Source of the DNA: a virus
Direction: 5' to 3' (one strand)
Virus record (IMG/VR): IMGVR_UViG_3300013286_000010
Span: 19,093 to 83,092 of that record
Length of the DNA: 64,000 nt
Under the pieces are notes generated by a model. It ran no database searches and was not told the DNA's origin. It was given only the letters and a program-made list of their open reading frames with translations. Shown piece after piece: positions 21,801-64,000 of the stretch (position 1 is its first letter; every line of letters starts with the position of its first letter). Made by a program: the position numbers and the translations under genes.

Positions 21801-24800
21801 TTCAAAACTACTCGCTAGCTGAACCGTCGTTCCACCTATGATAGGCAAAGTAGGAATTGATTGAAAGTATACTAGATTAAATGTTGTTCCGCTTTGATGA
21901 CTAGTTTTTACTCTGTAATAATTATTATTATAAGAAACTAGTTGACCTGCTTGATAAAATGTTCCTGTAGGTGCAGAATTAGCAGATGTTGTATCTGCCG
22001 ACGAAAGTCCAGTTGCTCCAGAAGACGAACCGCTAGTCCATGTTACATATGATTCAGAAACTCCACCAACTGTTATTGTAGGCGTATTAGAATTTCTAAC
22101 TGGCATGTATATATCAAAATAAGGATTACTAGAATCGTAACCTTGGATAGAATATTTGTCATTTATCTTCTGTACAACTAGACCAGAAATGCTTACTTTC
22201 TTTACAGGATTACTAGTGTTTAAAATTAAATTATAATTTTCTTGAGGCAGTAACGCACCTGGACTAGTGCTATTTGGTTCGTATGCATCAATGACAATTT
22301 GTAGTTTATCTTTGCTAACAAACCCGCCAACTTTATAGAATAAATTAAAATCAATATAAGATAAATCTTGTTTTAATTGATCAATATAATTTGTAGATCG
22401 TTGTTGACCCACTTCGGAAACATAAACACTATACCCACTAGTTTGTGTTTTATCAACATCATCGTGAATTTTAACTGCGGTAATATTTAAAAATTCTCCA
22501 GCAGTTCCATATGTCCATTGTCCGGCGGCATTTTTAATTACTCTGCTAGTATCGTACATCGATGATGCATAGACAGCAGGTTTAGTTAATGCTAATAATT
22601 TTTGTACAACAAACGGCCAATAGCTACTACGTCGCCACGATGTTTCAGCAGGACCCTGATCACCAAATTTCCAAGGCTGACGCGTGTTATAATCAGTAAC
22701 GTCAGTTACTAAATGTGCAGGGGGCGGTAATAAATGACCAAAGCGGTCAACTGGAATTATTCCTAATAAACCAGGACGAGCATAAACGCTATTGGTAGTG
22801 TTATTGTGACGATTGTATCCGTTTGATAAATCAGTCCATAGTTTAGTATTTGTAGATAAGTAAGGAGCATTACCATATTCTGCAACCCACCATGATGGCC
22901 TTTCAGCAAATCCTAACATTTCCCAAGGATGAGTATGAGGTTTGTCAGTATCATAAAAATATTTAGATACGCCTCTCCAATATCCCGGAACATACGTTGA
23001 GTGAGCTGCATTATAGCTACCTGTATAATTCCAAGTAAATTCAGCAGTGTTAATACCATCATATAAAATGCCGCTGTCTTCAAACACAGTATTAGTAGTA
23101 TAATCTATGCCGTAGAATCCAGCCCATTTAATGAAGTCACTTTGTAGAATAGAATTAATTTCGTCTACAGAGTAATCAGTAGTTCTAAATGCTCCGGGCA
23201 TTACACTGTTAACATCTAATAATTCTGATCTGTATTCTGTTTTGATGTTATTGTAAACACGTTTTTCAAATTCAAGAATAATAGCATCTCTATAATCATT
23301 GTAGGCTACCATTAAGCTACCATCATGACCTTGAATAACATTTACAGGAGTAAGATATGTGTTATCTTCAAATATGCTAGGAGCAAATCTTGGGAATAAT
23401 CCCAACTTAGTAGGAGTAGAAGGTACAAAAGATCCTTCAGTACTAAAGTAATCATCAACAACTAATACATCACCCTTTGTTAAAGATTTTAAAATTCTAA
23501 CAGATGAATCATTAGTTACAAACTCGTAGTCGTGATCACGTAGTAATTGTCCTCCATTTAAGTAAACAATAATAGAACGTAGGCTTAACGTAGAAAGACT
23601 AAAGTCACTAGTAATAGGATATACAGTATTACGAGAATCTGTTACTGTCCATGTTCTAGTAGTTTTATCAGTTCCGTAGGCAATCATGTCTGATAGATAG
23701 TACGGAGACAATAAATCTTTATCTACATTTAATTCTTTTAATGCTCTGTCAAGGCTTCCTATTGGATTAGTTTGTGTATCAATTTCAGAAATCTTCTTTA
23801 AAAATAACAACTTGAATTGATTATATTGATCAGCAGATTTTGTTAGTGCATCGATAACACTGTGTTCTTTCTTACCAATAAAAAAGTTTGCAAATGCTAA
23901 CGGATTAGCATTAGAAATTAATCTAGTGCCATAACTAGCAACACCAAAAACATCTCTTAAATTTAAAACGCCAGAATAGTCTCCGTGAAGATGACGATAC
24001 CTGGTTAACGCTGTTTGTAAATGATCACTCAATTCACTTAAGGTTAAAGATGCGATTGGACCATTTAATGGATTGTTAGTTAACGACAATGGCAATTCAT
24101 AATAGCTAGAAGTAGCTCCATGAATAATAGGAATCGGATATGGTTTAGAAGTTGCCCAAACATTGCCATATGTACTATTGTTTATAAATTTGAAATAAGT
24201 GTCAGCAGTCGGTACCGTTGTAATATTCTGATTTGTTTCAGAAATATCAAATGTACCGTCCATGAAATAGTTTTTAAACAGATAACTGCCTAGCCCTGCA
24301 CTATTTTTATATTTTAGCGGGAATCCCAATACTGAATCATTTGCACCTGTGCCTATGTCATAACTGAATAATTTGTTCCCTGTAAAATTAGTCAAATAAT
24401 GTGCAGTATCACTATAACTATTTCCGTTACTGTCAAACAAATCAAATAATGGTGCCTGATTTAATGTGGGATGTTGTTGTGCATATTGCCACTTACTGCT
24501 ATCAAACCACCAATTTGTTCCAGCATACTGGTTGCCTGTGTTTATGCTAACATTAACTTTGTCCGATACATTGATAATATTAACTAGCTCTATTCTCGGA
24601 TACCCACCAACGGTTACAAAGTTAACTTGAAAAATTTTGTTACGTACTGTTGCATCAGTGTCGGCATTAAAGATAATAGTATTTCCTTGCTCCAGTAAAG
24701 TTCCATCAACATAATATCCTGCAGAACCTTCTACTTTATTAAATGCGTCTAAAGTAACTGTATCAATAAAATCGATGTTAGAAATTCCAATTTCTCCAAA

Positions 24801-25745
24801 ATTAAATAATTTTAGATTTGCATTAAATTCAACAATAGGACGCTGTGCTCTTTTATTTGCAGGATATAATGGAATTTGATTATTAACTTCCGAACTTATT
24901 TTAATTACATCACCGTGTATCCATCTATTGTATTTTGACCAAGGGTTAACATCTTGACTAGCACGGTTGATAGTTATATATTCAGGAGTAATAGGCAATG
25001 TTTTAAAATTATCAAACGGATAATCATCAAATGCATTAGCATCAAAGTTATCATTAAAGACAGTTTTTATACTCTGAGAGCCCGACAATAAATCATAACT
25101 GACTAATTTAATACTACCTCCTACACCTTCTACAAAATATTCTTTTTCATAATACGACGAAGGAGTAACATTTCCCCTAAAACGTAACTTCATTCCATTT
25201 GATAAAGGCAATTCAGACGCATATGAGACAACTGTACCTATGGTCAGTGTATAATTTGTTTGACCTACTATGGCTTTTTCTAAATTGCCAATAGAAGTTG
25301 CATCAACTACAATAGTTTCTGGACCAGTTACTAACCAATAATATTCTTGATAATTTATAAGTTTGTCCCAATCAACTTGGGGATCAAAAGAATACACCTC
25401 TGATCTAAACATCCTATCAAAGTTATCATTTTTTCCGCCTTTTGTAGAGATTTCATTTGTTAAATCATCAATACCTATTACATCGTTAACTGTACTAGAA
25501 TTATCTTTAACTACCAATGCGGGCTCTAACTGATAATCTCTACGCAAAGGCAACGATTCAGTAATATAAACATCTGTTAAAGAATTGTATGTTGCAGTTT
25601 GTGTGGATCCAATGTATCCGTCAATTCGTTCTAACTGGGGAGGCTGTATTAATTGGTCAATAGTACTGGATAAGAATTTTGCGTTCTTATCCGTTCTAAA
25701 TATTTCAGGTAGTAGATTGATAGACTTGATAACTTTATTTGCCAT
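12852..25745 (-). CDS. giant tail/baseplate structural protein (4297 residues) with an FG-GAP-like propeller
   Basis: 12.9 kb, uninterrupted. It follows gp6 and occupies the position of T4 gp7-gp12, none of which is otherwise visible. The N-terminus (NAKFLSSTIDQLIQPPQLER) is of a type I know from very large virion proteins of T4-like marine phages. Residues about 1930-2340 contain five or more integrin-like repeats (for example FGHSIYV...LVGAPGT...GTVYAY, WGYSI...LAIGAPG...GLVSIF, FGEKLLV...VSAP...GKVAIY), suggesting a beta-propeller. Beta-rich repeats with GxGYxxxPTV motifs lie near 2760-2800 and 3125-3180. There is no signal peptide. Probably a peripheral baseplate or host-adhesion protein. 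gp7-like identity is by position only. Confidence 0.8.
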   Translation of the reverse strand: MANKVIKSINLLPEIFRTDKNAKFLSSTIDQLIQPPQLERIDGYIGSTQTATYNSLTDVYITESLPLRRDYQLEPALVVKDNSSTVNDVIGIDDLTNEISTKGGKNDNFDRMFRSEVYSFDPQVDWDKLINYQEYYWLVTGPETIVVDATSIGNLEKAIVGQTNYTLTIGTVVSYASELPLSNGMKLRFRGNVTPSSYYEKEYFVEGVGGSIKLVSYDLLSGSQSIKTVFNDNFDANAFDDYPFDNFKTLPITPEYITINRASQDVNPWSKYNRWIHGDVIKISSEVNNQIPLYPANKRAQRPIVEFNANLKLFNFGEIGISNIDFIDTVTLDAFNKVEGSAGYYVDGTLLEQGNTIIFNADTDATVRNKIFQVNFVTVGGYPRIELVNIINVSDKVNVSINTGNQYAGTNWWFDSSKWQYAQQHPTLNQAPLFDLFDSNGNSYSDTAHYLTNFTGNKLFSYDIGTGANDSVLGFPLKYKNSAGLGSYLFKNYFMDGTFDISETNQNITTVPTADTYFKFINNSTYGNVWATSKPYPIPIIHGATSSYYELPLSLTNNPLNGPIASLTLSELSDHLQTALTRYRHLHGDYSGVLNLRDVFGVASYGTRLISNANPLAFANFFIGKKEHSVIDALTKSADQYNQFKLLFLKKISEIDTQTNPIGSLDRALKELNVDKDLLSPYYLSDMIAYGTDKTTRTWTVTDSRNTVYPITSDFSLSTLSLRSIIVYLNGGQLLRDHDYEFVTNDSSVRILKSLTKGDVLVVDDYFSTEGSFVPSTPTKLGLFPRFAPSIFEDNTYLTPVNVIQGHDGSLMVAYNDYRDAIILEFEKRVYNNIKTEYRSELLDVNSVMPGAFRTTDYSVDEINSILQSDFIKWAGFYGIDYTTNTVFEDSGILYDGINTAEFTWNYTGSYNAAHSTYVPGYWRGVSKYFYDTDKPHTHPWEMLGFAERPSWWVAEYGNAPYLSTNTKLWTDLSNGYNRHNNTTNSVYARPGLLGIIPVDRFGHLLPPPAHLVTDVTDYNTRQPWKFGDQGPAETSWRRSSYWPFVVQKLLALTKPAVYASSMYDTSRVIKNAAGQWTYGTAGEFLNITAVKIHDDVDKTQTSGYSVYVSEVGQQRSTNYIDQLKQDLSYIDFNLFYKVGGFVSKDKLQIVIDAYEPNSTSPGALLPQENYNLILNTSNPVKKVSISGLVVQKINDKYSIQGYDSSNPYFDIYMPVRNSNTPTITVGGVSESYVTWTSGSSSGATGLSSADTTSANSAPTGTFYQAGQLVSYNNNYYRVKTSHQSGTTFNLVYFQSIPTLPIIGGTTVQLASSFETEVKQIPYKTEFSTIQEVYDIIVGYGKWLEAQGFIFDEYNSDFATTIDWNFSSKEFLYWTSQNWSNNSIITVSPFANQIKYSLANTVVDSVFDSFYDYSLLSANGTSFPRQNLSVTRDNGVCTIKTSNSTDGIYFATIYSVQKEHAMVFNNTTIFNDTIYDIETGYRQRRMKLTGFRTANWNGDYFSPGFVYDSAQINDWLQYTDYQSGDVVRFNSQYYSANKNITGSAKFDFNLWTLLGNKPVAGLLPNFDYKINQFEDFYSLDIDNFDSGQQKMAQHLIGYTPRVYLNNIFTNPIAQYKFYQGFIKEKGTRNAITKLAKASIHNLQGQLGYSEEWAFRIGYYGAYETYQELEVPLTEGKFIENPQVVNFVNSAPSAPNDLIYYSAVTDQIIVPTDYNPLTTFPVETDTDFEFELITAGYVRIDDVTATAYNESSLLNLANNGTIKEGDTVWMGFKKNSDWDVYRYSRVDADIIGVDVVTYSGEITFKTNLFHGLSVGDIVSVSKFSSDADGIYTVIKTPSVSEFTVASPSISLTSLGVDPIPLYKFKSARTSSYDNLPTDDELLKFSDNTIFWVDNDDNYKWKVYQKINNFTPVISTGTNKNEQLGRSISKRKGSDIFVVGSPAYTATSIAIRGKVSVYKKTGDDFRGQLNYTLNDGTLHYYDVERAPITDFGHCVVYDDTAFSTTTYGLIFASAPLASYVSTTGSNYSNYVEQGLIKISSINPQILEENTQAVLTVPVSTSSYQHFGHSIYVQRNINTKLMLVGAPGTNNTGTGTVYAYQITTATNSINVAYVKQLTTSSVTTIGSKWGYSISGSDNANILAIGAPGHFTNTGLVSIFTGTSAVFSQTLVSPFGKYGQFGEKLLVSPNGAYLFVSAPYSKNDNLSYGKVAIYTATNGLFVLQSVLTNPAPGPGMYFGKDIDITVSNDSLVISAIGNNKNLYSTFDITNTESIFDVDSTMFYGTIKNSGTVYVYNRKDTRFVLADDLESTVIDDDTFYGTSVTIDDCILVGAPSLKNSNTVNAFYQFNKIDKSTNGFKILREQDSLTMVDAIQRVTLINSFTEEIINYLDVVDPLKGKIVGIADQELTYRTTFDPAVYSAGTTSTVIDSETNWLEDHVGELWWDLSTAKYVWYEQSDLTYRKNNWGKLFPGASIDVYEWVGSSYLPSEWSQLADTALGLTEGISGQPKVADDSVISSKQVYNSVTNSFSTRYYYWVKNKSTVPDVKNRRASSYQVASMIYNPTAYGVQYAAIIDTNAIALANIGSLLVGNRIHLNVAIDSTNKNIAESSTNRHTEWLLLQEGSATSRPNALLEKKLIDSLLGHDKLGNPVPNPTLTSRTRYGIGIRPQQTLFKDRLEALRNLVEFTNSVLLKNRITGNYSFANLNKQQLVSDINSHEYDQTVEDNEGLLIIDTRLFAIPKLRCVIDNGKIQTVIIDNPGFGYKISPTVKIISDVKSDAEISTEIDNQGRVISVKVVNAGNGFTEAPTLEVRPYTVIVLADTQFKNRWSKFIYDLDTLTWARVATQQYNTPLYWKYVDWVSTDYNPFLDFTATVNDVYEINELTLSAGQYVKIKNGGSGHYIILEKTALGIVGSFSTDYNIVYNENGTIQILDTIWDLPLSSYGFDQNNSYDQTLYDQTPDIELQYMLIALRDDIFVNELKVNWNLFFFKAVKYALSEQKLLDWAFKTSFINVVNYAGALDQRPVYKISSSDYYEQYLDEVKPYHTIVRSFTSNHTLVEPTNTFSTDFDNPYRWVNGNLVDYYQTDNFAVGDVDATTDYIKSLNLPKPQESFLLNRGFALDHISVSHPGTNYTSAPTVLVFNEYYQVIEDFRAIAHIESGKVISIEITNNTTSTFYRQPTVKLQGGTTGVVAIAYTHLTNKQVRTNQIGMKFDRVGSTDQIGNNIVVDQFVCNGSVEEFTLNWLADADKSKITITLDGNVVLRSDYTIKYFTAQYNGYTKKFSKVVFLNYVPLVSQVLKVIYTKSINLFNASERIQNYYKAASGMPGFDPENPEFDQLISGINYPKTIIEGLPFTNSAWDFLYGSGSTNTFDTVPYADDVGFYTTAVVTTTATIGSNTFILDSVTGIEAGQNVNIISTTSTVFKITNVLVSAVYALSSSIEVSDFSTTEIPKGYVIEFWKYEENSNLLDSAIDGNSSSPEVIINGDAFYTADTSHAPEEFLPGQASDSVGINVYTKTFYGAPVVFSHSIDIISNVTTRRKLGIVPPSNNNITVSFNGKMFSVSDFIPTELDSPFFYIDWEHNEIVVGPQSVSGYLGYTIISIGGGHIGRENGIIDSASATHLPGSSTIFGFETIAQVSSLASTSSVKSAYVTVNGSAITTITTALPYFELTFSNIENDRAAVNVYGLTPGTTSTIQAWFFGTQYDYFNEISEQTIALNTSAFTATCINIKSNEIDPIVAAPIVEYYNPNTKIRKQLTPPHIDYYQVTSSTNNVFLINNQGTFNTYDGTVRAYRNGNKLTPGFDYTVSDNLLTIDISRVALVSGDAIAIVDLPTGGDKDYDYDIYYDNAGIPKLQLSVSTSTGEIKVLTYNDNDDMMIRTERFDGNPNRRFKVTRPVTNINYVWVQLNGTPLTSGLDFDVLDDQLTIQISDAYSILSTDSIVIRSMVDQRLATTLLGYRIFNDMFNRTSFKRLSKENTTYLTSPLSYKDTEIHVADATVLTQPMLSKKIPGVVIIDGERIEFMKASKTVLSQLRRGTLGTAPSRYSAPGTKVIDQSVNQTIPFTETIKTQVHYTSNGVSTYSINTVTQKLTVTGTNEVLISDGIILNSIVNPEDQVQVFYGGRLLRKSGTYIHDTTITYDSPDTKGIKIGTTSTVAGLPYTTEIGKAYTVTSTNQVWVYTDSIEPDSFKGYVYRGLQYLPPEFTISNTQQLILNITGGVGDRIKLAVVKKEFDKSAEWNDVDPNNSRRTLSIIDSTTLPAKFLQEKTAELPDKYYYGGDITLTDNDGSPLLDDNNKPLTEGF

Positions 25746-52205: not shown

Positions 52206-55200
52206 ATGGCTAGAACGATCAGAGTATCAGGAACACTATCGACAAACCCGACGCCTGGTGCATCGTATAAAATTACCGCGCCCGACGGCAGCGTTACTAT
52301 TAGTTCTTCTAACACAAACATCATCAGTACCAGCCCTACTGGAAAATTTACAATTCAGACTCCGTCTGTTCAGCTAACAAGTCCTACACAATCTTATAGT
52401 TCGCAGACTGGTGCATTAACCGTTGCCGGCGGTGTTGGTATTGAAAAAGATTTATGGGTTGGTGGTATAATTCACGGCATTGTTGAAAATGCAGTTACAT
52501 CTACCCTATTAATTGTTACTGCTACTAACATTGATTCTGTCTTCTATCCAGTCTTTGTAGACCAATTAGGTACTGGTCGTCAATTAAGAGGCGACAATAT
52601 AGGCCAAGGTACTGATACATTCCGTGGCTTAACATATAATCCAGCACGTGGTTTGTTGAGAGCAGATAAAATGTTTGTTTCAGCAAGCACCGCATCTACT
52701 TCTCCTATCACAGGAGCATTCACTGTCACAGGTGGCGCTGGTATTTTAGGTAATGTTAATCTTGGTTCAAATTTAACTGTAGCAGGCAATGCCAATCCCG
52801 AACAAAATTTAAATTCTAATTTAGGTAACACTGCAACACAGTGGGCAGAGTCTTACTTAAATAAAATCTATACACAATTTATTTCTTCAACTGCTAGTAA
52901 CGTTCAGATTGCACCCGAAGGTGGCGTTACTGAAATCATTGGAGACATTCGTGTTCGTGGTACAAAACCAATTGGTACTGCACCTGTTGTTACTAATGTA
53001 TTGTATGTTACAATGGACGGTGATGATACTAACGACGGTCGTGCTCAAGATGCTAGCCGTGCTTGCCGTACAATTACTGGAGCTGTTAATAGTCCTTATT
53101 ATCAACCGGGCACACAGATCCGTGTTAGTCCTGGACATTATTTAGAAGACAACCCAATTCAACTGAAACCATATACAAGTATTATGGGTTCAGACATTCG
53201 TACTACAGGTGTTGAACCGATTAACAAGACACAAGACTTGTTCCATATGAATTCAGGATGCTACCTAGCGTTCATGCAATTCTTAAATGGACGTAGTGGT
53301 TTGTTAGAAGGAGCATATGAAGATAGATTTAATCGTGGAGCATATTGCACAGCATTCCCTCCATTGATCGGTGATGATAGAATTGATCTATATCATTCTC
53401 CATACATTCAAAACTGTACCAACCTTTCTGGCCCATGGTTAAAAGATGGTACATTGTTCACCCCGAACCAAACAGTTCAAGTGCCTACTGCTGTTGGTAC
53501 AGGAACTTGGGTAATTAATACAACTAGCATCGTAGTAAACGTAGCGTCTGGCACGATTAAGCAAGGCGACTATGTCAATGCTGGACAACAAAATCCAGGA
53601 TTCTTCAATGCTCGAACATTGTTGTTGGCCAGCAAACCATTCTTACAAGAACAAGTTGTTGCACATGTTAACAGTAGCTATCCTGGATTTGTTTATAATC
53701 AAGAAAAATGTTTTAGAGATGTTGGTATCCTTATAGAGAATGCTGCATACGATGCAGCATTTGGCGGTAATGAAAAATCTGTTGAAAGTGGTTTAGCATA
53801 TTTTAACGGAGTAGTAAGTGTTATTGCTGGTCAAGAAATACAAACCACTAATGCTATCAATTACCTTCGTGATCGTTGTTTAGAAGTTATTACTAATACT
53901 CCTTGCACTAATACGATTTCTGGAAAATATTCTCAAGTTAGAAATACAGTATTAATAGGTGGCGGTGTTGCATCCGATTCAATAACAAATCTATTTGGTA
54001 TTGTTACAACAATTATTAATAACGGTCCATCAGCTGCTCCAAAAATTTATAAGAGCACTGGGCCAGATGCAGCATTTGTTAGTGCTGAAATTTTAATGCA
54101 AGCCAACAGAGCTTTCATGCAAGAAGATACTATCAATTATATCAATTATAATTTATGTGTACCTCCTAAAACATTGCCATACAACAAAATTAAATGCAAA
54201 CGAGATGTTGGATTAATTGTAGATTCTGTTGCATTTGATTTGTTATATACAACTTCAAGTCAAACAACATTTGCCGGTTTACAATATTGGAACCAAAACG
54301 GTTATGTAGGTACAATTGCAGGTGAACTTACAACTACAACCGCCGCAGTTAGCTATCTAAAAGAGTTAGCAGTTAAAGTTATACAAAATATTACACCTGC
54401 TGACGATTTAGTAACTCGTTATCAGACCAGTACTCCGCAGAATACTAGTTTAGAAGCAGCTACAGCAGAAGAAGCAACAATTATTATAAAAGAATTTAAT
54501 ATTATTCTTGACATTCTTGGCGGAAATAGTTTAGGATGGTCTGATAAAATTATTCCTAATGGTCGCTCTAGTGAATTTTTAAGTGTACGAAATGCTGTCG
54601 CAATTTTAGAAGCCAACAAAAATTACATGAAGGCAGAAGTTATTGCATATATCGATGCATTGAATGTAGGATTTTTAGATGCTCACAATGCAAGGACAAA
54701 ATATATCCGAGACATTGGTTATATGATTGATTCTGTTGCATTTGATTTGTTGCATGGTGGCAATAGACAAGCTGTTCAATCTGGTCTAGCATATTATGCC
54801 CCTGATCTAGGAACTATTACTATTCAGGCACAAGAAGTAGCAACAACTAATGCATTTACTTATTTGGCTACTATTGCAGGTAATATTGTACAAAATATTA
54901 AAATTAGTCCGTTACAAACACGAGTAAAACAAAATACTTTGTTGACTACTGCTACATCTGCCGAAGCTACATTGATTGCTAACGCGGTTTCTACAGTAAC
55001 AAATATCATAAACAACGGTCCAGTTGGCTACAAATACAGCCCTATGTCATTAACTGAATCTGGTTCTGCAAATGTTGCTAACGCATTTAATATATTATTG
55101 GCCAACAGAGCATTCATACAGGCAGAAGTTGTTGCTTATATTGATAAGACATACAATCCTAATTCGTTTAGTTATGACGAAGAACTATGCTACAGAGATA

Positions 55201-57491
55201 CTGGCTTGTTAATTGACGCAGTTAGTCAAGATATCTTATTAGGCGGTAACAGCAAATCTATCGAAGCCGGTCTTGCATATTGGAATCAAGGTTATAATTC
55301 TATAGCAGGACAAGAGACTACCACTACAATGGCAATTAATCACATCCGAGATATTGCTCTACAGATTATTGCAAATGAAGCTGTTACTGCACAGACTGGA
55401 ACATTGTCTACACAGGTAATTAATCACTTCTTTGATTACGGCGGCGATTACATGCCACAACAAGCTGTAAGTCGTAATTTCAATATTATTACGATTATTA
55501 TTCAAGAAGGTCCTGAATATGCGCCGCCTGTATATCAAGGTGGTGGTATCTTTGCATTAACCGGTATCAACGGACTAGATGTTAAGACTGCTCCTCAGGT
55601 TACTTCTGTTAGTACAATTACAGTTGGCAAATATCTAGTAGGGTTGAATACTGCTACTATTGGTTTTGGAACTAACTCAACATTATACTTTGGTGAAACA
55701 TTAGTATTCCCTAAACAAGATTTTGAAGTTGCAGCAATGAGTTTAGAATTGACAGGTGATGCAACTACATGGAACAGCAGAAAAGTTGATCCTATTGGCG
55801 GCATGGGTGGTAGTCTAGTAGACGGCGCTGTTATTAGTGCTCGTAGTCCTATCCAATCTTTTGTTTATGATGCGTTTACACAACTAACACAAGGCGGTCA
55901 CGGTGTTAAGATCACTAATGATGGTTATGCGCAGTTAGTTTCTGTGTTTACAATCTTCTCAAGTGTTGGAGTTCAAGTTACCAATGGTGGTATTGCTTCT
56001 ATTGTTAACAGTAACGCTAACTTTGGTGATGTTTGCTTATTGGCAAAAGGTTACGGAGAAAGAAAGTTTAGCGGTACAATTTATAATCCAGTATTTAAGG
56101 CTTATCCAAAAGGTACTGATTTAGATCAATATTACCCTGCAGGCTATTGGCCAAACAATGCTCGCGTTGAAGTGTTCTTACCAGATACAGGTGATAGACC
56201 ACACATTTCTCTAGTAATGGAAGTACTTCCTCCAGACGGTCATACTAACGAGCAAGGATTCCCCGGATTCCTAAACGCTGTCCCTAACCTAGCAACGCTG
56301 AATACTGGTACAATTACTATCACTGGTATTAATACTGACGGTATTGCAATTGGCAATACATTGTACATTAGAGATCAAAATGCTAGTACTGTAGATTCAA
56401 GCGGAACACCATATGTAGCTACTGGAACAGTTGTTACTGATCTAGGTTATCAGAGTGTTACACTAAATCTTGCATTAACAGGTGGCGGCGGCGAAATTGG
56501 CAATCCTAATTTCTTTAACTTATATTTTTGTGGAAATGCTTACTATACAGTATTAAGCAGTGAAGTGGCTGAAAATCCAAAGACTGCTGGATTGAATTTA
56601 TTGTCAGCAGCCAGTACCGGCGGCACTGATCAAATCGCGCAACACACTCTTGCATTACAACGTTTAAATATTATTGTTGATCAAGTTATTAGTAACACCA
56701 CTGTGACAAGAATGTCCACATCCACACAAACTAAACTTCCATTAGTAACTGGTGGTGGGGCAGCACAAACATTTATTGATCTACGATTTGGAGAAATAAT
56801 CAGTATATTTGGTGCTGCTAATCTAGCGGCAGCTGAAGCAGTTATTCCTGTTAAGTTAAGAACAAAAACTGGCCCTGCTGTACAAGGCGCAGGTTCTGCA
56901 ATTACACTAATTAAAGCCAATATAGATTTTATGGCTGACGAAATACTTGCCTATATTACAGGTGACATTGGATCAGGCGGTTTAGATTTTACAAATTTTA
57001 ACCAAGATAAATGTAAGAGAGACATTAAGATTATTTTACAAAGATTGATCTACGATATTGAAACTGGCGGTAGATATAATAGTGTTATGAACGGATTGAG
57101 CTACTGGTCAAGAGACGCCACGCATCATTTAATATCTTTAGGAGAAAATGTAAGACGTACTGATCTATTCCCAGACGGTTCTACTGTTAACTTCTACCAA
57201 CGTAGTTACATCAGCGCATCTGGATATGTATTTGAATATGTAGGTGCCGGAACTAACTATGGTGCATTACCACAAGTAGGTCGCGCAGATCCTGTACAAG
57301 GAAAAGAAACAGTTCAGTTAGGCAGCGGTAAAGTATTCTTTACAAGTACTGATCAGAACGGTGACTTCCGTATTGGTCCAGGATTAGTTATTAGTCAAGC
57401 AACAGGTGTTCTGAGTGGTAGAACATTTACTAAATCGTTATTCGCTAACATGACACCGTTCATCCTAGCAATTGAAGGTGGAAACCTATAA
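52206..57491 (+). CDS. large fibre/structural protein with four to five internal repeats and a beta-helix
   Basis: 1761 residues from ATG 52206 (Shine-Dalgarno AAAGGA; the ATG 54 bases upstream overlaps the previous gene). Residues 55-95 and 160-200 hold the TGAxTVAGGVGI fibre module. Residues 262-420 look like a right-handed beta-helix start (YVTMDGDDTNDGRAQDASRA, then PGHYLEDNPIQLK). Repeats of about 165 residues follow near 497, 659, 825 and 989, with a divergent one near 1598; consensus CxRDxGxLIDxxxxDxxxGG, then GLAYxN, then GQExxTTxAIxY. A second beta-helix lies near 1115-1290. Likely a trimeric tail fibre or baseplate appendage. Confidence 0.8.
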   Translation: MARTIRVSGTLSTNPTPGASYKITAPDGSVTISSSNTNIISTSPTGKFTIQTPSVQLTSPTQSYSSQTGALTVAGGVGIEKDLWVGGIIHGIVENAVTSTLLIVTATNIDSVFYPVFVDQLGTGRQLRGDNIGQGTDTFRGLTYNPARGLLRADKMFVSASTASTSPITGAFTVTGGAGILGNVNLGSNLTVAGNANPEQNLNSNLGNTATQWAESYLNKIYTQFISSTASNVQIAPEGGVTEIIGDIRVRGTKPIGTAPVVTNVLYVTMDGDDTNDGRAQDASRACRTITGAVNSPYYQPGTQIRVSPGHYLEDNPIQLKPYTSIMGSDIRTTGVEPINKTQDLFHMNSGCYLAFMQFLNGRSGLLEGAYEDRFNRGAYCTAFPPLIGDDRIDLYHSPYIQNCTNLSGPWLKDGTLFTPNQTVQVPTAVGTGTWVINTTSIVVNVASGTIKQGDYVNAGQQNPGFFNARTLLLASKPFLQEQVVAHVNSSYPGFVYNQEKCFRDVGILIENAAYDAAFGGNEKSVESGLAYFNGVVSVIAGQEIQTTNAINYLRDRCLEVITNTPCTNTISGKYSQVRNTVLIGGGVASDSITNLFGIVTTIINNGPSAAPKIYKSTGPDAAFVSAEILMQANRAFMQEDTINYINYNLCVPPKTLPYNKIKCKRDVGLIVDSVAFDLLYTTSSQTTFAGLQYWNQNGYVGTIAGELTTTTAAVSYLKELAVKVIQNITPADDLVTRYQTSTPQNTSLEAATAEEATIIIKEFNIILDILGGNSLGWSDKIIPNGRSSEFLSVRNAVAILEANKNYMKAEVIAYIDALNVGFLDAHNARTKYIRDIGYMIDSVAFDLLHGGNRQAVQSGLAYYAPDLGTITIQAQEVATTNAFTYLATIAGNIVQNIKISPLQTRVKQNTLLTTATSAEATLIANAVSTVTNIINNGPVGYKYSPMSLTESGSANVANAFNILLANRAFIQAEVVAYIDKTYNPNSFSYDEELCYRDTGLLIDAVSQDILLGGNSKSIEAGLAYWNQGYNSIAGQETTTTMAINHIRDIALQIIANEAVTAQTGTLSTQVINHFFDYGGDYMPQQAVSRNFNIITIIIQEGPEYAPPVYQGGGIFALTGINGLDVKTAPQVTSVSTITVGKYLVGLNTATIGFGTNSTLYFGETLVFPKQDFEVAAMSLELTGDATTWNSRKVDPIGGMGGSLVDGAVISARSPIQSFVYDAFTQLTQGGHGVKITNDGYAQLVSVFTIFSSVGVQVTNGGIASIVNSNANFGDVCLLAKGYGERKFSGTIYNPVFKAYPKGTDLDQYYPAGYWPNNARVEVFLPDTGDRPHISLVMEVLPPDGHTNEQGFPGFLNAVPNLATLNTGTITITGINTDGIAIGNTLYIRDQNASTVDSSGTPYVATGTVVTDLGYQSVTLNLALTGGGGEIGNPNFFNLYFCGNAYYTVLSSEVAENPKTAGLNLLSAASTGGTDQIAQHTLALQRLNIIVDQVISNTTVTRMSTSTQTKLPLVTGGGAAQTFIDLRFGEIISIFGAANLAAAEAVIPVKLRTKTGPAVQGAGSAITLIKANIDFMADEILAYITGDIGSGGLDFTNFNQDKCKRDIKIILQRLIYDIETGGRYNSVMNGLSYWSRDATHHLISLGENVRRTDLFPDGSTVNFYQRSYISASGYVFEYVGAGTNYGALPQVGRADPVQGKETVQLGSGKVFFTSTDQNGDFRIGPGLVISQATGVLSGRTFTKSLFANMTPFILAIEGGNL

Positions 57492-57500
57492 GGAAATATC

Positions 57501-57884
57501 ATGGCATTAATTCCATTAAACACATTTAAAACAAAGACCGCAGTGTTAGGTAGTAATTCTACTAGCACAGTATATACAGCACCAGTTGGTGTTACAAGTA
57601 TTATATTGATGGCACAGGTAGCAAACTTAACTACTCAAACTCAAACATTAAATTTTGTTCATCATAGAAACAGACCAATATTAGCAGATGCACAAGGTAA
57701 TGGCAGACAAGATGCTAACATAGACAGTCCATTGGTTAGAAACTTTTTAGTGCCTGCGGGCGATGCTGCTAGTGTATTAAGTGGCAAACTAATTATCGAA
57801 AGTTTAGACAGCATTAGAGCATATAGCGGAAACACTGGAACATTACAATTAGTATTGAGTATTCTAGAAACAGCAAACGAATAA
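57501..57884 (+). CDS. small virion protein, fibre-associated
   Basis: 127 residues. MALIPLNTFKTKTAVLGSNS, then VYTAPVGVTSIILMAQVANL and FLVPAGDAASVLSGKLIIES, match a small beta-sandwich protein found beside fibre genes in T4-like phages. Spacing to the upstream gene is 9 bases; Shine-Dalgarno AAGGAA. Possibly a fibre-binding or cap protein. Confidence 0.75.
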   Translation: MALIPLNTFKTKTAVLGSNSTSTVYTAPVGVTSIILMAQVANLTTQTQTLNFVHHRNRPILADAQGNGRQDANIDSPLVRNFLVPAGDAASVLSGKLIIESLDSIRAYSGNTGTLQLVLSILETANE

Positions 57885-57896
57885 TAGAGACGTATA

Positions 57897-59783
57897 ATGG
57901 CTAAACTATTAAGTGGATCATCATTACGAGTAGGGGGTAGTAATACTTTTATTAACCTAATCAATGCTCAACCTCAACTGACTACATCATCAAGTACTAC
58001 CACAGGTTTTACAATTAACACTGACCAATTCTTGATAACAACTTATCGTTCAAGTCTAGGTAACCTAGAAATGAATTCTGGGACTATCTTTAATAACATT
58101 CCTAACGGTAATATTACACTTGCAGGAACTGGCACAGGATTTGTATTTGTATCAAGCAGCACGGCATCGACTAGTACAACATCCGGTGCATTGGTTGTTG
58201 CAGGCGGTATTGGAGTTGGCGGAACAATATGGACTGCACAAGATATTCATGTTAACGGATTAACAATAGGACAAGGATTCAAAGGAATCAATAATATTGT
58301 TATTCAGGGAACTGCTATTACTCAAGTAAATGAATTTAGTAATGGTCAAGAAAGTATTGTAATTGGGAATGATGCACTACAAGGGTTATCTACAGCATAT
58401 AAAAGTGTCGCTATCGGCAACTATGCATTAAGTAGCGGTACTGAAATTAGAAATAGTATTGCAATAGGTGACAGTGCTCTTAAAGCAACTGGGTCTGTTC
58501 AGTACGTATTAGCAGCCGCAATTACCAATATCACTAAAGCCAATCCAGCAAGAGTAACAGCCGCAGGACATGGTCTAGCAACCGGTACACATATTACTAT
58601 TGTTGGTGTTGCTGGTATGACTGAAATCAATGGATTAAAATGTTATGCTAAAGTTATAGATAGTTCCACACTGGATTTATATTCTAATGTTATTGTAACA
58701 ACACCAATTAATAGTACAGGTTATTCTACATATACCGGTAGCGGCACAGTAAACAGATTGCTAACTCGCGATAACAATATTGGTATTGGTAACAATGCAG
58801 GTGCAAAACTTATTGACGGAGAACAAAACTTTTTCTTTGGAGAAAGTGTTGCAAAGAATTTAACTACTGGATCTTTTAACTTTTTAATTGGTCACAATGT
58901 AGGACAGAATTTAATTACTGGTAGCGGTATTATTGGTATCGGTGGCGACAATCTAGTTGACGGTGTTGACAATCAAATTAATATTGGCAGCGCATTTTAC
59001 TATAACGGATCTGGTCATTTAGAATTAATTACCGATGTTACACTTGGCTTGGGCACCCCTTGCGGTACAGACACTGCGGCATTATGGGTAATAGGCGGAA
59101 CCAACATTGATTCACCCGACACAGCAATAAGCACTACAACCGGTGCGTTAGTTGTCGCAGGCGGTGCAGGCTTTGGAAAAGATGTGTGGATTGGAAAAGA
59201 TCTAACAGTATTAGGCACAATCAACGGTGCTATTAATACTACTACAAATATTCGTGGCGGCGCCAGAGGCAGTGTACCATTTCAAACTAGCACAGGTATA
59301 ACATCATTGTTACCGATTGGTGCAACTGGTACAGTGTTGGTATCTGACGGTCATGTTCCTTATTGGAGCAATGCCGGTGGAAATGGCGGACTTGGAGTAA
59401 TTTCGACTGCAACTGAAGCAGTGTTTATACATGCAACTACTGCTAATAATGTATACTATGTTGGGTTGAGTGAATCAATTGGGACTTATTCAAAATTTGA
59501 CGGCGACTCTAGATTAAAATACGTAACTACTAGCTCTAATGTTAATACCAGTACATATTATTCATCAGGCACAAATGTATTAAATGTTCCTGGAACTGTT
59601 TACAGTGCTACTGGCAACCCCGATGAGTATAATTTATTATATACTCCTAGAGTTACATTGAGTGATATTGCACCTGTTAATCCTAGGGTAGGAGATTTTT
59701 GGATTGATACGGTAAATGGTGTTGAACTACAATGGATCAAAGATGGTCTTAATGCTTTTTGGATACAATTTGCAGGACTGTAA
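57897..59783 (+). CDS. tail fibre with YadA-head-like repeats
   Basis: 628 residues. Copies of the TGALVVAGGxG module lie near 95 and 415. Residues 150-200 and 295-360 contain YadA-head/left-handed beta-roll repeats with the IxIGNxAL pattern (IVIGNDAL, VAIGNYAL, IAIGDSAL, IGIGNNAG, FLIGHNVG), typical of trimeric adhesins. A unique insert (about 200-285) separates the two sets. The C-terminus has PRVGDFWIDTVNGVELQWIK. Likely a receptor-binding fibre. Confidence 0.8.
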   Translation: MAKLLSGSSLRVGGSNTFINLINAQPQLTTSSSTTTGFTINTDQFLITTYRSSLGNLEMNSGTIFNNIPNGNITLAGTGTGFVFVSSSTASTSTTSGALVVAGGIGVGGTIWTAQDIHVNGLTIGQGFKGINNIVIQGTAITQVNEFSNGQESIVIGNDALQGLSTAYKSVAIGNYALSSGTEIRNSIAIGDSALKATGSVQYVLAAAITNITKANPARVTAAGHGLATGTHITIVGVAGMTEINGLKCYAKVIDSSTLDLYSNVIVTTPINSTGYSTYTGSGTVNRLLTRDNNIGIGNNAGAKLIDGEQNFFFGESVAKNLTTGSFNFLIGHNVGQNLITGSGIIGIGGDNLVDGVDNQINIGSAFYYNGSGHLELITDVTLGLGTPCGTDTAALWVIGGTNIDSPDTAISTTTGALVVAGGAGFGKDVWIGKDLTVLGTINGAINTTTNIRGGARGSVPFQTSTGITSLLPIGATGTVLVSDGHVPYWSNAGGNGGLGVISTATEAVFIHATTANNVYYVGLSESIGTYSKFDGDSRLKYVTTSSNVNTSTYYSSGTNVLNVPGTVYSATGNPDEYNLLYTPRVTLSDIAPVNPRVGDFWIDTVNGVELQWIKDGLNAFWIQFAGL

Positions 59784-59804
59784 AATTAACAAAAGAATTA
59801 TAAT

Positions 59805-60887
59805 ATGGCAACTTTAAATTTTCCCTCAAATCCAGTAATTGGTGATACCTATACCGTAGGCACTACTACATGGAAATGGACCGGGTATGCTTGGATTAAA
59901 GCACCCGGAGCTAATACATTTGGTTTAATAACAGCTACAAGTATTATTGTTTCAACAACAACTAATTCTGTATCTACATTAACTGGATCTCTTGTAGTAT
60001 TTGGCGGAGTCGGTATCGGTGGCGACTTATGGTTAGGTGGCGATTTGTATGCACAAGGACATTATGTATTAACTACTGCAACATTTGCTAATGGCGTATT
60101 GGATGGATCAGACATTAATATTAATACTAATCCAGGCGGCTCTGTTACAATTTCTAATACGTCAACATTACAATCAGTAACTGGGCGCGGAGCAACAACT
60201 ACTAATGTGGTAACATTTGCTAGCACTGCTAGATCAACTTCAACTACTACAGGTGCTGTGATAATTAAAGGTGGATTAGGAATCGCAGGCAATTTGACAT
60301 TAGGCAGCAGAATTTATGCAAATGGTTCTACTGGAACAGTAGGTCAAGTATTGAGTGTTACTCCTACTGGATTAACATGGGCATTACCGGTTAGTACGTT
60401 TAATGGCGGCAATGTAAATTCTCCTATGCGTATTTTATCTACAGTATCTTCAGTTAGCACTACTACTGGCGCATTGATAGTAACCGGTGGTGTCGGCGCT
60501 GGTGGTGATGTATGGGTAGGTGGTCGAGTAAATTCTGAAAGTGTTAAAATTGCAGATGCAATTTTTGATTCAAGTTCTGTCAACATAACTAACACTGCAC
60601 CTACAGCAATTGATTCATTCTCGTTTAGCCAGTATAGATCAGCAAAGTATCTAGTTCAAATTGATGAAGGTTCTACCTCAACAGCACGCTGTCAAGTAAC
60701 TGAACTTATGATGATCGTAACCAACACAGGTACAGTAAGTATTTTAGAATACGGTAATATAATGCCAAACGGAGACCTGGGTAATTTTGATGCTAACTAC
60801 ATAAGTGGGACAGTTACTCTAGTATTCATAGCAGTAGACAATATTCCAAAGACAGTCAAGGTATTAAGAACAGCAATGGCTGTATAA
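59805..60887 (+). CDS. tail fibre-like protein with three repeat modules
   Basis: 360 residues. It starts with an intein-like-fibre cap segment (FPSNPVIGDTYTVGTTTWKW, then GYAWIKAPG). Three TGAxxVxGGVGIGG-type modules lie near 60, 150 and 220. The C-terminal 110 residues (FSFSQYRSAKYLVQIDEG, then VTELMMIVTNTGTVSILEYG, then NYISGTVTLVFIA) form a beta-sandwich tip domain seen in other phage fibres. There is no clear Shine-Dalgarno. Confidence 0.78.
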   Translation: MATLNFPSNPVIGDTYTVGTTTWKWTGYAWIKAPGANTFGLITATSIIVSTTTNSVSTLTGSLVVFGGVGIGGDLWLGGDLYAQGHYVLTTATFANGVLDGSDININTNPGGSVTISNTSTLQSVTGRGATTTNVVTFASTARSTSTTTGAVIIKGGLGIAGNLTLGSRIYANGSTGTVGQVLSVTPTGLTWALPVSTFNGGNVNSPMRILSTVSSVSTTTGALIVTGGVGAGGDVWVGGRVNSESVKIADAIFDSSSVNITNTAPTAIDSFSFSQYRSAKYLVQIDEGSTSTARCQVTELMMIVTNTGTVSILEYGNIMPNGDLGNFDANYISGTVTLVFIAVDNIPKTVKVLRTAMAV

Positions 60888-60898
60888 CGGAGAAGTAA

Positions 60899-63800
60899 AT
60901 GGCGGCAATTAGTAAAGATTTCGTAGTTAAGAACGGCATAGTCATAGAGGGTGACAGTGAAGTAACTAGTTCTACGAATCAAATAGACGCCTTACAGGTA
61001 GACGGCGGAGCCGCCATTGCAAAGAATTTAATTGTAGGAACAACTGCAACTATTCTTGGAAACGTATTTCTTAATCAACCATTACTACCCTTATCGAGAA
61101 ATGCAACCCTTGGATCTCCAGACAATCCATTTTCAGAATTATATCTACGAGGAAATTCATTATATATAGATCATGTTGTTATAACATCTACTGGGACAGA
61201 CTTAACAGTTTCTAGCACAATTGGTTCTTCAGTAGTACATGCTGGTTCGTTAATATTAAGTAACATTGCATCTTCTAATAGTCCTAGCACTGGTGCATTG
61301 CAAGTTGCTGGTGGCGCAGGCATTGGCGGAAATTTATATGTTGGATTGGATGCCGAGCTTCAACAAACGTTGTCAGTAACTGGCACATCGGTATTTTATT
61401 CAACGATATCAGTTGCGGGTATAGCATCATTTAACAATACTGCTCCTGCAACATCAATGGGTGCTGGCGCAGTTCAAGTTACTGGCGGCGCAAGACTAAA
61501 CAACAATTTAGTTGTCATGAGCACTGCATCTAATACTGGCACATTAGAAACCAATGCCGTATATGTTGAAGGCGGCGTCGGAATTAAAGGAGGATTGGCA
61601 GTTAGTGGAAGTGCTGTATTTAAAAACGATGTATACTTCCAAGGTTCTACTACCTATGTTTACAGTACAAATACCGTCTACACAGACAATTTAATTGAGC
61701 TACATGTACCTCCAACGGGTGCATGGACATTTGACGATGGAAAAGATATTGGATTTAGATTCCGCTATTATAATAATGCTGATTGGAATGCCGCATTAAT
61801 AGTTGCTAACGATTCTAAAAAATTAGAATTTTATAAAAATGGATCAGAAGTTAATGGCTCATTTGTTGGAGTCTACGGTGATTTTAAAACGGGCACACTT
61901 CAGTTAGTTGGTAATGCCACTTCTGTATCAACTACTACTGGAGCATTAACTGTTGCCGGCGGAGTTGGTATTGCAGGTAATTTATTTGTTGCTGGCGGAA
62001 TAACAGGTACAATTACACAAGCTGATAATTTAACTGGTGGTGTAAAAGGTTCTATACCTGTACAAAGTAGTACTGGTACAACTATATTTGTTGATCCAGG
62101 CACTAGAGGTAACCAAGTATTAACTTGGGATTCTGCTACATTTTTACCCAAGTGGGGTGATTCAGGTGTTTATGCCACTACTGCATCAAACATTGCAGGA
62201 GGATATCCCGGATCTATTGTATATCAATTAACTACTGGATCAACAGCATTTTTAATTGGCAGTAGTTCGAAATACATGTTGACCTATAACACAGGCACAC
62301 ATGCTCCACAATGGACTAATCCTATTGAATATACAGTAGGGTATGCTAATACTGCTACTACTTCTACATGGGCAAGTACTGCAAGTTACTCAGTATATGC
62401 AAGTAGTGCAACTTATGCAACAACTTCTAGTCAAGCAAATTATGCACTATTTGCAGATTCAGCTACTACTGCTACTACTTCAACATATGCATTTACAGCA
62501 ACGTATGCAAATATAGCATTTACCTCAACATATGCAAATATAGCATTTACCTCAACATATGCAAATATAGCATTTACAGCAACGTATGCAAATATAGCAT
62601 TTACAGCAACATATGCAAATATAGCATTTACCTCAACTTATGCAAATATAGCATTTACCTCAACTTATGCAGATATTGCGTCTACAGCAACCTATGCAAA
62701 TACATCTAACTATGCTGTCGTAGCTGGAACAAGTACATATGCTAATACATCTAATTATGCATTAGTTGCAAGTACTAGCACTTATGCAGATATAGCATTT
62801 ACTTCAACATATGCTAATACATCTAATTATGCATTAGTTGCAGGTACTAGCACTTATGCAGATATAGCGGTTACTTCAACATATGCAAATACATCTAATT
62901 ATGCTATCGTAGCTGGAACAAGTACATATGCATCAATTGCAGGATATGTAGTTACATCTACATACGCAAGTACATCTACTAACATTGCAGGTGGTACACC
63001 TGGATCAATATTATATCAATCAACTACAGGAACAACAACTTCTTTACCATTAGGTAACGCAGGAGAATTATTGTCTGTTGGTACAGGCTCTAATATTAAA
63101 TGGATGTCAATCACTGGATTATCAGTCGGATATGCTACAACAGCAACAACAGCAAATTTTTCTGATAACATTAAAACAATTTCTCAATACTCCGATTTAA
63201 CTTATTATCCTACGTTTGTTACTGACAATAATACTACAGCTACATATGAGGCAGTATATACAACTAGTAGTTTCCGTGTTAATCCTAGAACTGGCGCTGT
63301 TAATATTGGTGGTAAAGTAACAGTTGGTGGGAAAATTTGGGCTAATACTGGATCATCTTTTCAAGCACTATCTACTAACAATTTTAGTATAGATAGAAAT
63401 ATGGATCCGTCAGCTGGAGCAGAAATATTCACATCTCTGCCAACAGGTACGGTATGGCGTCAACGAGTATATACCGCCGATGATAAAATTTGGTTACACA
63501 ATGATAGAAAAGCGCAATCGTCTCGATATATAAATTTTGATTCGTTTGGATCAATAAATTTTGGAGATGCTTTTATACTTGATCGAGAATATGTTTCATT
63601 ACATGCTGATCTAGAAGCAAGAGCATTTCAGATTAATGTAACTAATTTTGCAAACTTTCCAACTTTAACAACAAGTACCTGGATATTCGATGCCGACGGT
63701 GGTTTAACTGCTCCTGGTAAAATATTTGTTAGTTCAACTGCAAGTTCAACATCAACTACAACCGGTGCGTTAGCAGTAGTGGGCGGAGTTGGCATCCGGG

Positions 63801-64000
63801 GCGATGTATATGTTGGTGGTGATATATACACTAACAATCAAAAGGTTATTACCACTGCTACTATTAACTCTTATGCTAATCAAACAGCTATATTTGCAGG
63901 AACTGATACTGCTATCAATACCAGTACCGGCAATGTTACAATTTGGAATACCAGTACATTACAAAGTGTAACTAATCGTGGTAATAGCACTACTAACGCA
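60899..64000 (+). CDS. long tail fibre-like protein, 3'-truncated by the window edge
   Basis: Open for 1034 codons from ATG 60899 (Shine-Dalgarno GGAGAA) with no stop before the right edge. N-terminus MAAISKDFVVKNGIVIEGDS. At least five modules of the shared GGxGIxGNLxVG type lie near 125, 185, 220, 340 and 950. Residues 260-310 contain NTVYTDNLIELHVPPTG and a domain DGKDIGFRFRYYNN. Residues 530-700 are a Tyr/Ala/Ser/Thr tandem repeat. The modules recur in the three upstream fibre genes. Confidence 0.8.
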   Translation, partial: MAAISKDFVVKNGIVIEGDSEVTSSTNQIDALQVDGGAAIAKNLIVGTTATILGNVFLNQPLLPLSRNATLGSPDNPFSELYLRGNSLYIDHVVITSTGTDLTVSSTIGSSVVHAGSLILSNIASSNSPSTGALQVAGGAGIGGNLYVGLDAELQQTLSVTGTSVFYSTISVAGIASFNNTAPATSMGAGAVQVTGGARLNNNLVVMSTASNTGTLETNAVYVEGGVGIKGGLAVSGSAVFKNDVYFQGSTTYVYSTNTVYTDNLIELHVPPTGAWTFDDGKDIGFRFRYYNNADWNAALIVANDSKKLEFYKNGSEVNGSFVGVYGDFKTGTLQLVGNATSVSTTTGALTVAGGVGIAGNLFVAGGITGTITQADNLTGGVKGSIPVQSSTGTTIFVDPGTRGNQVLTWDSATFLPKWGDSGVYATTASNIAGGYPGSIVYQLTTGSTAFLIGSSSKYMLTYNTGTHAPQWTNPIEYTVGYANTATTSTWASTASYSVYASSATYATTSSQANYALFADSATTATTSTYAFTATYANIAFTSTYANIAFTSTYANIAFTATYANIAFTATYANIAFTSTYANIAFTSTYADIASTATYANTSNYAVVAGTSTYANTSNYALVASTSTYADIAFTSTYANTSNYALVAGTSTYADIAVTSTYANTSNYAIVAGTSTYASIAGYVVTSTYASTSTNIAGGTPGSILYQSTTGTTTSLPLGNAGELLSVGTGSNIKWMSITGLSVGYATTATTANFSDNIKTISQYSDLTYYPTFVTDNNTTATYEAVYTTSSFRVNPRTGAVNIGGKVTVGGKIWANTGSSFQALSTNNFSIDRNMDPSAGAEIFTSLPTGTVWRQRVYTADDKIWLHNDRKAQSSRYINFDSFGSINFGDAFILDREYVSLHADLEARAFQINVTNFANFPTLTTSTWIFDADGGLTAPGKIFVSSTASSTSTTTGALAVVGGVGIRGDVYVGGDIYTNNQKVITTATINSYANQTAIFAGTDTAINTSTGNVTIWNTSTLQSVTNRGNSTTNA
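62507..62695 (+). repeat. seven tandem 27-base repeats within the last fibre gene
   Basis: Units start at 62507, 62534, 62561, 62588, 62615, 62642 and 62669; the first begins GCAAATATAGCATTTAC and each encodes ANIAFTSTY or a close variant. Differences are mostly ctc/cag at the TS/TA codon, and the last unit is diverged (ADIASTATY). A related longer period (about 24 residues, ANTSNYALVA-type plus ADIAFTSTY) follows to about 62940. It is in frame throughout, so length changes by slippage would keep the protein intact. Confidence 0.92.

Follow-up and report, generated by a model that had tools for sequence, protein, structure and literature searches.

Four adjacent genes at the end of a 64,000-nucleotide stretch of viral DNA (the window; positions 19093-83092 of the 83,092-base IMG/VR virus record IMGVR_UViG_3300013286_000010) encode proteins that share a Gly-rich module of about 37 residues. 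They are probably modular fibres built as beads on a string, with the module as the standard joint between beads. The genes, here numbered 1 to 4 and located at 52206, 57897, 59805 and 60899, would encode the fibre or spike proteins of a large T4-like phage. Each module would close one bead and open the next, and whole beads would be gained, lost or replaced in evolution while the ends stay, namely the N-terminal segments E and K, which presumably serve for attachment, and the C-terminal caps M and B (letters denote segment families, see below). The chains may be homotrimers, with the module as a short beta element that would lock the three together between beads, and the standard joint would be what allows rearranged genes to survive. 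In gene 1, five repeats with a predicted phycobiliprotein fold make up an additional arm.

A preliminary description of the window had counted two, two, three and five module copies in the four genes, respectively, and all 12 are present as described. A 13th, degenerate copy was added near the start of gene 4. The copies share a polar S/T stretch followed by TGAL-x-V-x-GG-x-GI-x-G-x-L-x-VGG, with five invariant columns in the alignment of the ten better copies, and form one alignable family beyond Gly/Val composition. Ten of the 12 scored 23.9-49.9 bits with profiles built solely from the copies of the other genes; the best shuffle per gene reached 4.6-8.8 bits, and none of the 2000 shuffles (500 per gene) exceeded 10 bits. 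The gene 4 copies centred on residues 194 and 223 (copies 9 and 10) failed this held-out test, the second with 6.7 bits versus 6.9 for the best shuffle, and are counted by the full profile alone. Neither Pfam nor NCBIfam gives a match to the module at its cut-offs.

The same words had also been said to recur at the DNA level. This is literally true, but it is no independent observation, being explained by the shared amino acids and codon usage. At positions with identical amino acids, codons agree in 354 of 960 cases (36.9%, with 36.8% expected from codon usage), and identity was as high as observed in 231 of 500 simulations. The longest genuine DNA word common to copies is 19 nucleotides (nt) long (simulated mean 14, maximum 22), and a 27-nt hit is one DNA stretch counted twice because two module copies overlap. 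Pairwise DNA identity among the 13 copies is 34-61%; given this divergence and the lack of a codon-level excess, the window copies are old, and the codon test rules out recent copying within the window.

Relatives were gathered from gp23 and fibre-gene relatives, and module copies were found in them by an iterated profile. This gave 411 copies (403 distinct) in 96 proteins from 27 records, with the module present at E 1e-3 or better in 24 of 25 related records searched. Many relatives hold 10-43 copies, mostly in adjacent genes after gp23. One relative (G012; loci L115 and L116) encodes a protein of 4524 amino acids (aa) with 21 copies, and 40 copies lie in the stretch read. The spacing of modules peaks at 32-35 residues (back-to-back modules) and at 88-99 residues (a module plus one bead of about 55 residues). 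The proteins were cut at the modules and the segments grouped as Louvain communities with a 70% length rule, replacing single-linkage chaining; the overlapping loci L105 and L108 and the near-identical G023 were dropped from this analysis and from the sham-site analysis below, and S-ShM2 additionally from the latter. There are 27 segment families with at least three members between modules, and families A, C, I, J, N and others are found beside differing neighbours. Across relatives, gene 1 reads N-D-F nearly everywhere, gene 2 starts with E-G and ends with P or M, and gene 3 mostly starts with K and ends with B, with a varying number of shaft units. The greatest variation is seen in gene 4, which takes segments from N, H, C, J, A, I and V and ends with B, R or other caps, the cap family B of gene 3 closing gene 4 in several relatives. 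Searches of named phages with gene 3 and with the last module plus A unit gave no match.

The proposal that the fibres consist of exchangeable segments is borne out by these interchangeable families and by differing arrangements in relatives. Copy number differs: gene 3 carries one, two or three modules among the 14 orthologues listed, flanked by a start that is usually conserved and by a conserved end cap, and gene 2 carries one to five, plus 15 in a fusion-like open reading frame. In the latter (relative G018; at least 1967 aa, open at the contig end), the start of gene 2 runs into segments of the gene 4 type. Gene 2 of a second relative (G006) encodes 250 aa versus 628 in the window; both ends and one module are kept, and the sequence between the window's two modules is absent. 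Between two other relatives (G016 and G017), colinear DNA with 71.8% identity extends for about 8.5 kb and breaks off within the last module that both share. Because the copies can be aligned and relatives differ in fibre arrangement, neither of the two outcomes named beforehand as fatal to the idea, likeness in composition only and a uniform arrangement, was found.

Whether homology ends at a module was compared with sham sites, masking the real modules and nearly as many sham sites in eight random draws. Homology ended rather than crossed in 85-89% of encounters at real modules versus 72-76% at sham sites, with the excess in all eight draws. Per side, breakpoint rates in modules were 33.6% versus 25.2% and 24.5% versus 16.5% in two tests. 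These per-side values and the paired sham control were used instead of nulls for both sides lying in a module, which were set aside as unfair because aligned ends are not independent.

Several observations weigh against the module as a standard joint. The excess of breakpoints, about 1.3- to 1.5-fold per side, is modest and could partly be due to fast divergence between conserved modules. The window copies carry no sign of recent exchange in the codon test, and 47 recent within-genome tracts in relatives (at least 80% identity over at least 80 nt) end in modules in 14% of cases versus 21% for shifted controls. When gene 3 was modelled as a monomer with AlphaFold2 (seven sequences), the module region (residues 35-251) had a predicted local distance difference test score (pLDDT) below 50, and a sequence search of the Protein Data Bank (PDB) with the module gave 0 matches and hence no relative. 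As the shaft is not confidently folded and has no PDB relative, the role of a joint is read from the position of the modules, not from structure. The trimerisation knot suggested in the preliminary description is not supported by these results; overall, the interpretation given there is partly supported.

The preliminary description had further suggested recombination between copies and a swapping of tips. As a full account, this would make the module a recombination site, at which short DNA homology drives unequal crossing over and tips are swapped within or between adjacent genes. The evidence on it is mixed, and we regard it as unlikely. The gene 2 deletion in G006, which leaves one module, and the break inside a module in G016/G017 are what it would produce, and in another relative (G013) two neighbouring fibre genes share a module plus A unit with 92% identity. 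For repeated beads, the nearest copy lies in the same genome in 18/26 cases for family A, 5/10 for I, 6/10 for J and 8/20 for C. Against it stands the codon-level result, and with 34-61% DNA identity the window copies are now too diverged for homologous recombination between them. The ends of the 47 tracts rule out module-targeted crossovers in recent duplications. For cap B, the nearest relative lies in another record in 22/22 cases (H 11/11, N 7/7), which rules out a recent swap of this cap between genes 3 and 4, so that recent tip swapping between neighbouring genes did not hold up either. We conclude that the modules are joints respected by surviving rearrangements, not demonstrated crossover sites.

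Alternatively, the module could be merely a conserved structural motif of beta fibres, with the mosaic look arising from fast divergence of the segments and no rearrangement. The modules are indeed the most conserved element, so that alignments stop at their edges, which could account for part of the breakpoint signal. As a full explanation this is improbable, since whole beads are present or absent between conserved ends. In addition, members of one segment family turn up at differing ranks and in more than one gene, and modules retain an excess of homology ends over the paired sham-masked sites. That Gly/Val-rich low complexity was mistaken for a module can practically be dismissed: copies 9 and 10 are weak, but the held-out profiles beat the shuffles, which refutes it for 10 of 12 copies, and all but one of the related records searched hold the module.

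The end of gene 3 gave a clearer picture than its module region (cap pLDDT 73-95 in the same model). The best match of the predicted cap is the C-terminal domain of T4 gp9 (1qex; Z 13.8, 109 residues aligned, root-mean-square deviation 2.1), whose beta-sandwich fold it shares in the model. The next matches are other phage baseplate, tailspike and fibre chains (Z 7.7-11.8), and the viral library matches in this comparison were for the most part proteins of cyanophages and uncultured phages.

Downstream of its two modules, gene 1 encodes five repeats of about 150 residues (107-193 bits with a leave-window-out profile, best shuffle 3.3) for which a phycobiliprotein fold is predicted. The Pfam family Phycobilisome (PF00502) matches the whole gene 1 protein at 1.1e-6 (29.2 versus a cut-off of 22.2), and of 62 single repeats, 19 match at E up to 1, the best at 7.3e-6, with most single repeats staying under the Pfam cut-off. 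A scan with PF00502 found matches at E 1e-3 or better in 12 of 25 phage records, above the cut-off in three of them, and a match in one of 14 control genomes, a cyanobacterium. The AlphaFold2 model of the repeat (62 repeats; pLDDT 75.5, predicted template modelling score 0.72) matched phycobiliproteins in 50 of the 50 PDB matches listed (Z 15.3-17.2, 118-149 residues, 10-17% identity), with Z exceeding the tool's warning level for helical models. One of these entries, 8u0f ('bacterial fluorescent protein'), is counted here as presumably phycobiliprotein-derived. A weak PDB profile hit (best E 0.021) aligned a C-x-R-D motif of the phage repeats with KC-V-RD of a phycocyanin chain. The Cys of this motif is kept in 60 of 63 repeats from 15 records, including four of five in the window, and the position of repeat 5 reads K-C-x-R-D in 11/11 rows. 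In the alignment of 62 repeats (one truncated repeat left out), Cys is found in 59 rows and Arg and Asp in all 62; the sole other column with at least five Cys has them in 9/44 rows.

According to an excerpt of PMC10151467, C-x-R-D is the bilin-attachment motif of phycobiliproteins and of some bilin-binding globins called BBAGs. The conservative reading of the gene 1 arm is a globin-like spacer domain decorating the fibre. We consider it somewhat more probable than its opposite that fold and motif are purely structural, retained from an ancient globin-like domain with no bilin bound. Such a role agrees with the absence of the Cys from window repeat 3 and from 3/63 repeats overall, with the Arg missing from 10 of 42 ungapped named-phage repeats, with repeats in five of seven large relatives without bilin genes, and with phage P-SSM2, which has bilin genes without repeats. 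It fits less well with the lone Cys column (59/62) beside an Arg and Asp that are never lost in this alignment, since an unpaired Cys in an extracellular fibre is not obviously needed for structure, and with the identity of the motif to the one published for bilin attachment (excerpt of PMC10151467). A more tentative idea, which we hold to be possible but doubtful, is that the tail fibre is a biliprotein, with tandem phycobiliprotein-fold domains covalently carrying bilin at C-x-R-D in cyanophages and large uncultured freshwater phages. The source of the bilin would then be either the host or a heme oxygenase and bilin reductase encoded by the phage itself.

A tblastn search with the repeat region hit 128 records out of 50,697 from phages; judging by their names (Synechococcus 110, Cyanophage 9, Prochlorococcus 8, Marine 1), every one of them is a cyanophage or marine virus. 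The profile found three to seven repeats each in nine of ten named cyanophage regions read, S-PM2 included, and the 42 ungapped rows from named phages hold Cys in 41, Asp in 42 and Arg in 32. No repeats were found by the profile in P-SSM2, though bilin genes are present. Two large uncultured relatives (G005 with 19 repeats and G010 with nine) also encode a bilin reductase. Heme oxygenase adjoins the reductase at L133 (G005:C1:163900-164900) and L134 (G010:C1:42700-43800), and scanning with the G010 reductase gave matches to 395 viral stretches. The repeat search covered 21 of 83 bilin-reductase loci, on contigs of at least 60 kb with one such contig left out. All eight examined contigs of at least 100 kb carry repeats (3-19) and heme oxygenase, and a control scan for further contigs of this size found none new. 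Repeats were found in 0/13 shorter contigs (60-86 kb), which are probably fragments. As five of seven large relatives without bilin reductase also have repeats and the 13 shorter contigs lack them, an association of repeats and bilin genes is not established. CpeT-type lyases were found in 6 of 12 named phages searched and in 0 of 12 viral contigs. Searching GTDB genomes with the last repeat of gene 1 gave 26 stretches, with no relative among them. The virion-detected long tail fibre of S-CREM2 has neither repeats nor modules and, lacking repeats, gives no proof of their presence in a virion.

The window ends where its contig ends, so that gene 4 is cut and may contain further module copies. 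A T4-type portal (phrog_213, 8.9e-113) and major capsid protein (phrog_138, 5.7e-99) are encoded just upstream of the fibre genes and place the virus among T4-like myoviruses. Among named phages, the closest at the DNA level are jumbo T4-like ones, XbC2 and CBB for example, whose matches span about 31% of the query at about 70%; the closest relatives overall are uncultured viral contigs. The gene psbA was found in 0/14 viral records tested, including that of the window, which gives no support to a cyanobacterial host. Gene 1, whose reading frame opens at 52152 with a likely ATG start at 52206, matches tail-fibre profiles (phrog_5342, tail fiber protein, 5.1e-68; also phrog_17885), and gene 2 matches a tail spike profile (phrog_4636, 3.5e-6). 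The profiles matched by genes 3 and 4 (phrog_697, phrog_3018) are named merely structural or head decoration. Residues 223-286 of gene 2 (58563-58754) resemble the FCCH domain of ubiquitin-activating enzyme E1 (PF16190, 27.0 bits versus a cut-off of 29.5), and such a stretch occurs in six of seven gene 2 proteins (best 2.2e-9). Pfam YadA_head matched one of these seven weakly (E 0.021) and none strongly. Genes of similar size to the phrog_1276 gene sit after the equivalent fibre gene in S-SRM01 and B23, a likeness of position only. The 27-nt tandem array of gene 4 is a repeat distinct from the module. On the minus strand, the window contains an open reading frame of 4297 aa (12852-25745). The features of the fibre region are listed below.

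Table 1. Features of the fibre gene region, in positions of the window; held out, profile built solely from copies of the other genes.
Feature	Position	Strand	Remarks
Gene 1, 1761-aa tail-fibre protein	52206..57491	+	2 modules near N-terminus, then five phycobiliprotein-like repeats
Module copy 1	52374..52487	+	41.8 bits held out
Module copy 2	52677..52790	+	23.9 bits held out
Phycobiliprotein-like repeat 1, KCFRD	53577..54017	+	166 bits, leave-window-out profile
Phycobiliprotein-like repeat 2, KCKRD	54048..54518	+	169 bits, leave-window-out profile
Phycobiliprotein-like repeat 3, YIRD (Tyr in place of Cys)	54570..55010	+	113 bits
Phycobiliprotein-like repeat 4, LCYRD, repeat used for folding	55050..55502	+	193 bits; Pfam Phycobilisome
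Phycobiliprotein-like repeat 5, KCKRD, joined to conserved SGYVFEYVGAGTNYG end	56865..57278	+	107 bits
Small 127-aa protein, phrog_1276 (unknown), between genes 1 and 2	57501..57884	+	
Gene 2, segments E - module - G - module - P; C-terminal cap ...GDFWIDTVNGVELQWIKDGLNAFWIQFAGL	57897..59783	+	
Module copy 3	58149..58262	+	27.1 bits held out
Module copy 4	59106..59219	+	32.4 bits held out
Gene 3, segments K - module - L - module - 35 aa - module - B	59805..60887	+	
Module copy 5	59949..60062	+	45.7 bits held out
Module copy 6	60216..60329	+	36.1 bits held out
Module copy 7	60432..60545	+	35.5 bits held out
Gene 3 C-terminal cap (family B), T4 gp9 C-terminal domain-like beta-sandwich	60558..60884	+	predicted model
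Gene 4, cut by contig end: 5 modules and a degenerate one, segment H, 9-aa tandem array, final module + A unit	60899..64000	+	
Degenerate module copy, residues 31-54 of gene 4, beyond the preliminary count	60989..61060	+	17.7 bits full profile, 5.8 held out
Module copy 8	61256..61369	+	31.6 bits held out
Module copy 9, weak, centred on residue 194 of gene 4	61430..61543	+	<=5 bits held out; 45.2 full profile
Module copy 10, weak, centred on residue 223, overlapping copy 9	61517..61630	+	6.7 bits held out; 44.2 full profile
Module copy 11	61904..62017	+	34.8 bits held out
Tandem array of gene 4, mostly 27-nt steps (9 aa), T-Y-A-N-I-A-F-T-S type	62332..62931	+	families D1, D2
Module copy 12	63728..63841	+	49.9 bits held out

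A defined joint gives a sequence rule for cutting fibres into natural exchange units, which is of use for annotation and the inference of host range. The phycobiliprotein-like repeats matter more than the joint. According to an excerpt of PMC11480375, the role of phage bilin genes, also in phages proposed to have non-photosynthetic hosts, and the co-occurrence of heme oxygenase and bilin reductase on phage contigs are 'still enigmatic', one suggested possibility being a bilin-binding globin as partner; some cyanophages are reported to adsorb light-dependently (excerpt of PMC9229316). A bilin-carrying fibre, if true, would give the phage bilin genes a direct use and be a possible physical basis for the light-dependent adsorption of some cyanophages, a bilin-binding virion protein thereby connecting the two. 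No report of phycobiliprotein-like domains in phage fibres was found in the full-text literature searched, outside which most subscription papers lie, and novelty is unproven.

Domain mosaicism with exchangeable segments is known to be concentrated in phage tail fibres and spikes (excerpt of PMC10684548), and the module described here is a clear variant of this known mosaicism. Like mosaic tail fibres and receptor-binding proteins in general (same excerpt), the window fibres are assembled from exchangeable segments; unlike them, their segments are delimited by one joint of about 37 residues, present in up to dozens of copies per phage. The cyanophages S-ShM2 (SShM2_102, 'YadA domain-containing structural protein') and S-SRM01 share the module in low copy, in contrast to the high numbers in many relatives of the window. 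The gene 3 cap resembles, in the predicted model, the C-terminal beta-sandwich of gp9, the long-tail-fibre connector of T4, with 17% of residues identical. Counterparts of the N-terminal and middle domains of gp9 were not found in gene 3, whose shaft was not folded confidently enough for comparison, and, unlike gp9, the cap ends a module-jointed shaft. The gene 1 repeats are shared with S-PM2 (S-PM2p091) and eight other named cyanophages. With phycobiliproteins and BBAGs (PF00502; excerpt of PMC10151467), they have in common the predicted fold and C-x-R-D; the Pfam score passes the cut-off for the whole protein but mostly not for single repeats. They differ from phycobiliproteins in their low sequence identity and in standing in tandem inside a phage fibre protein.

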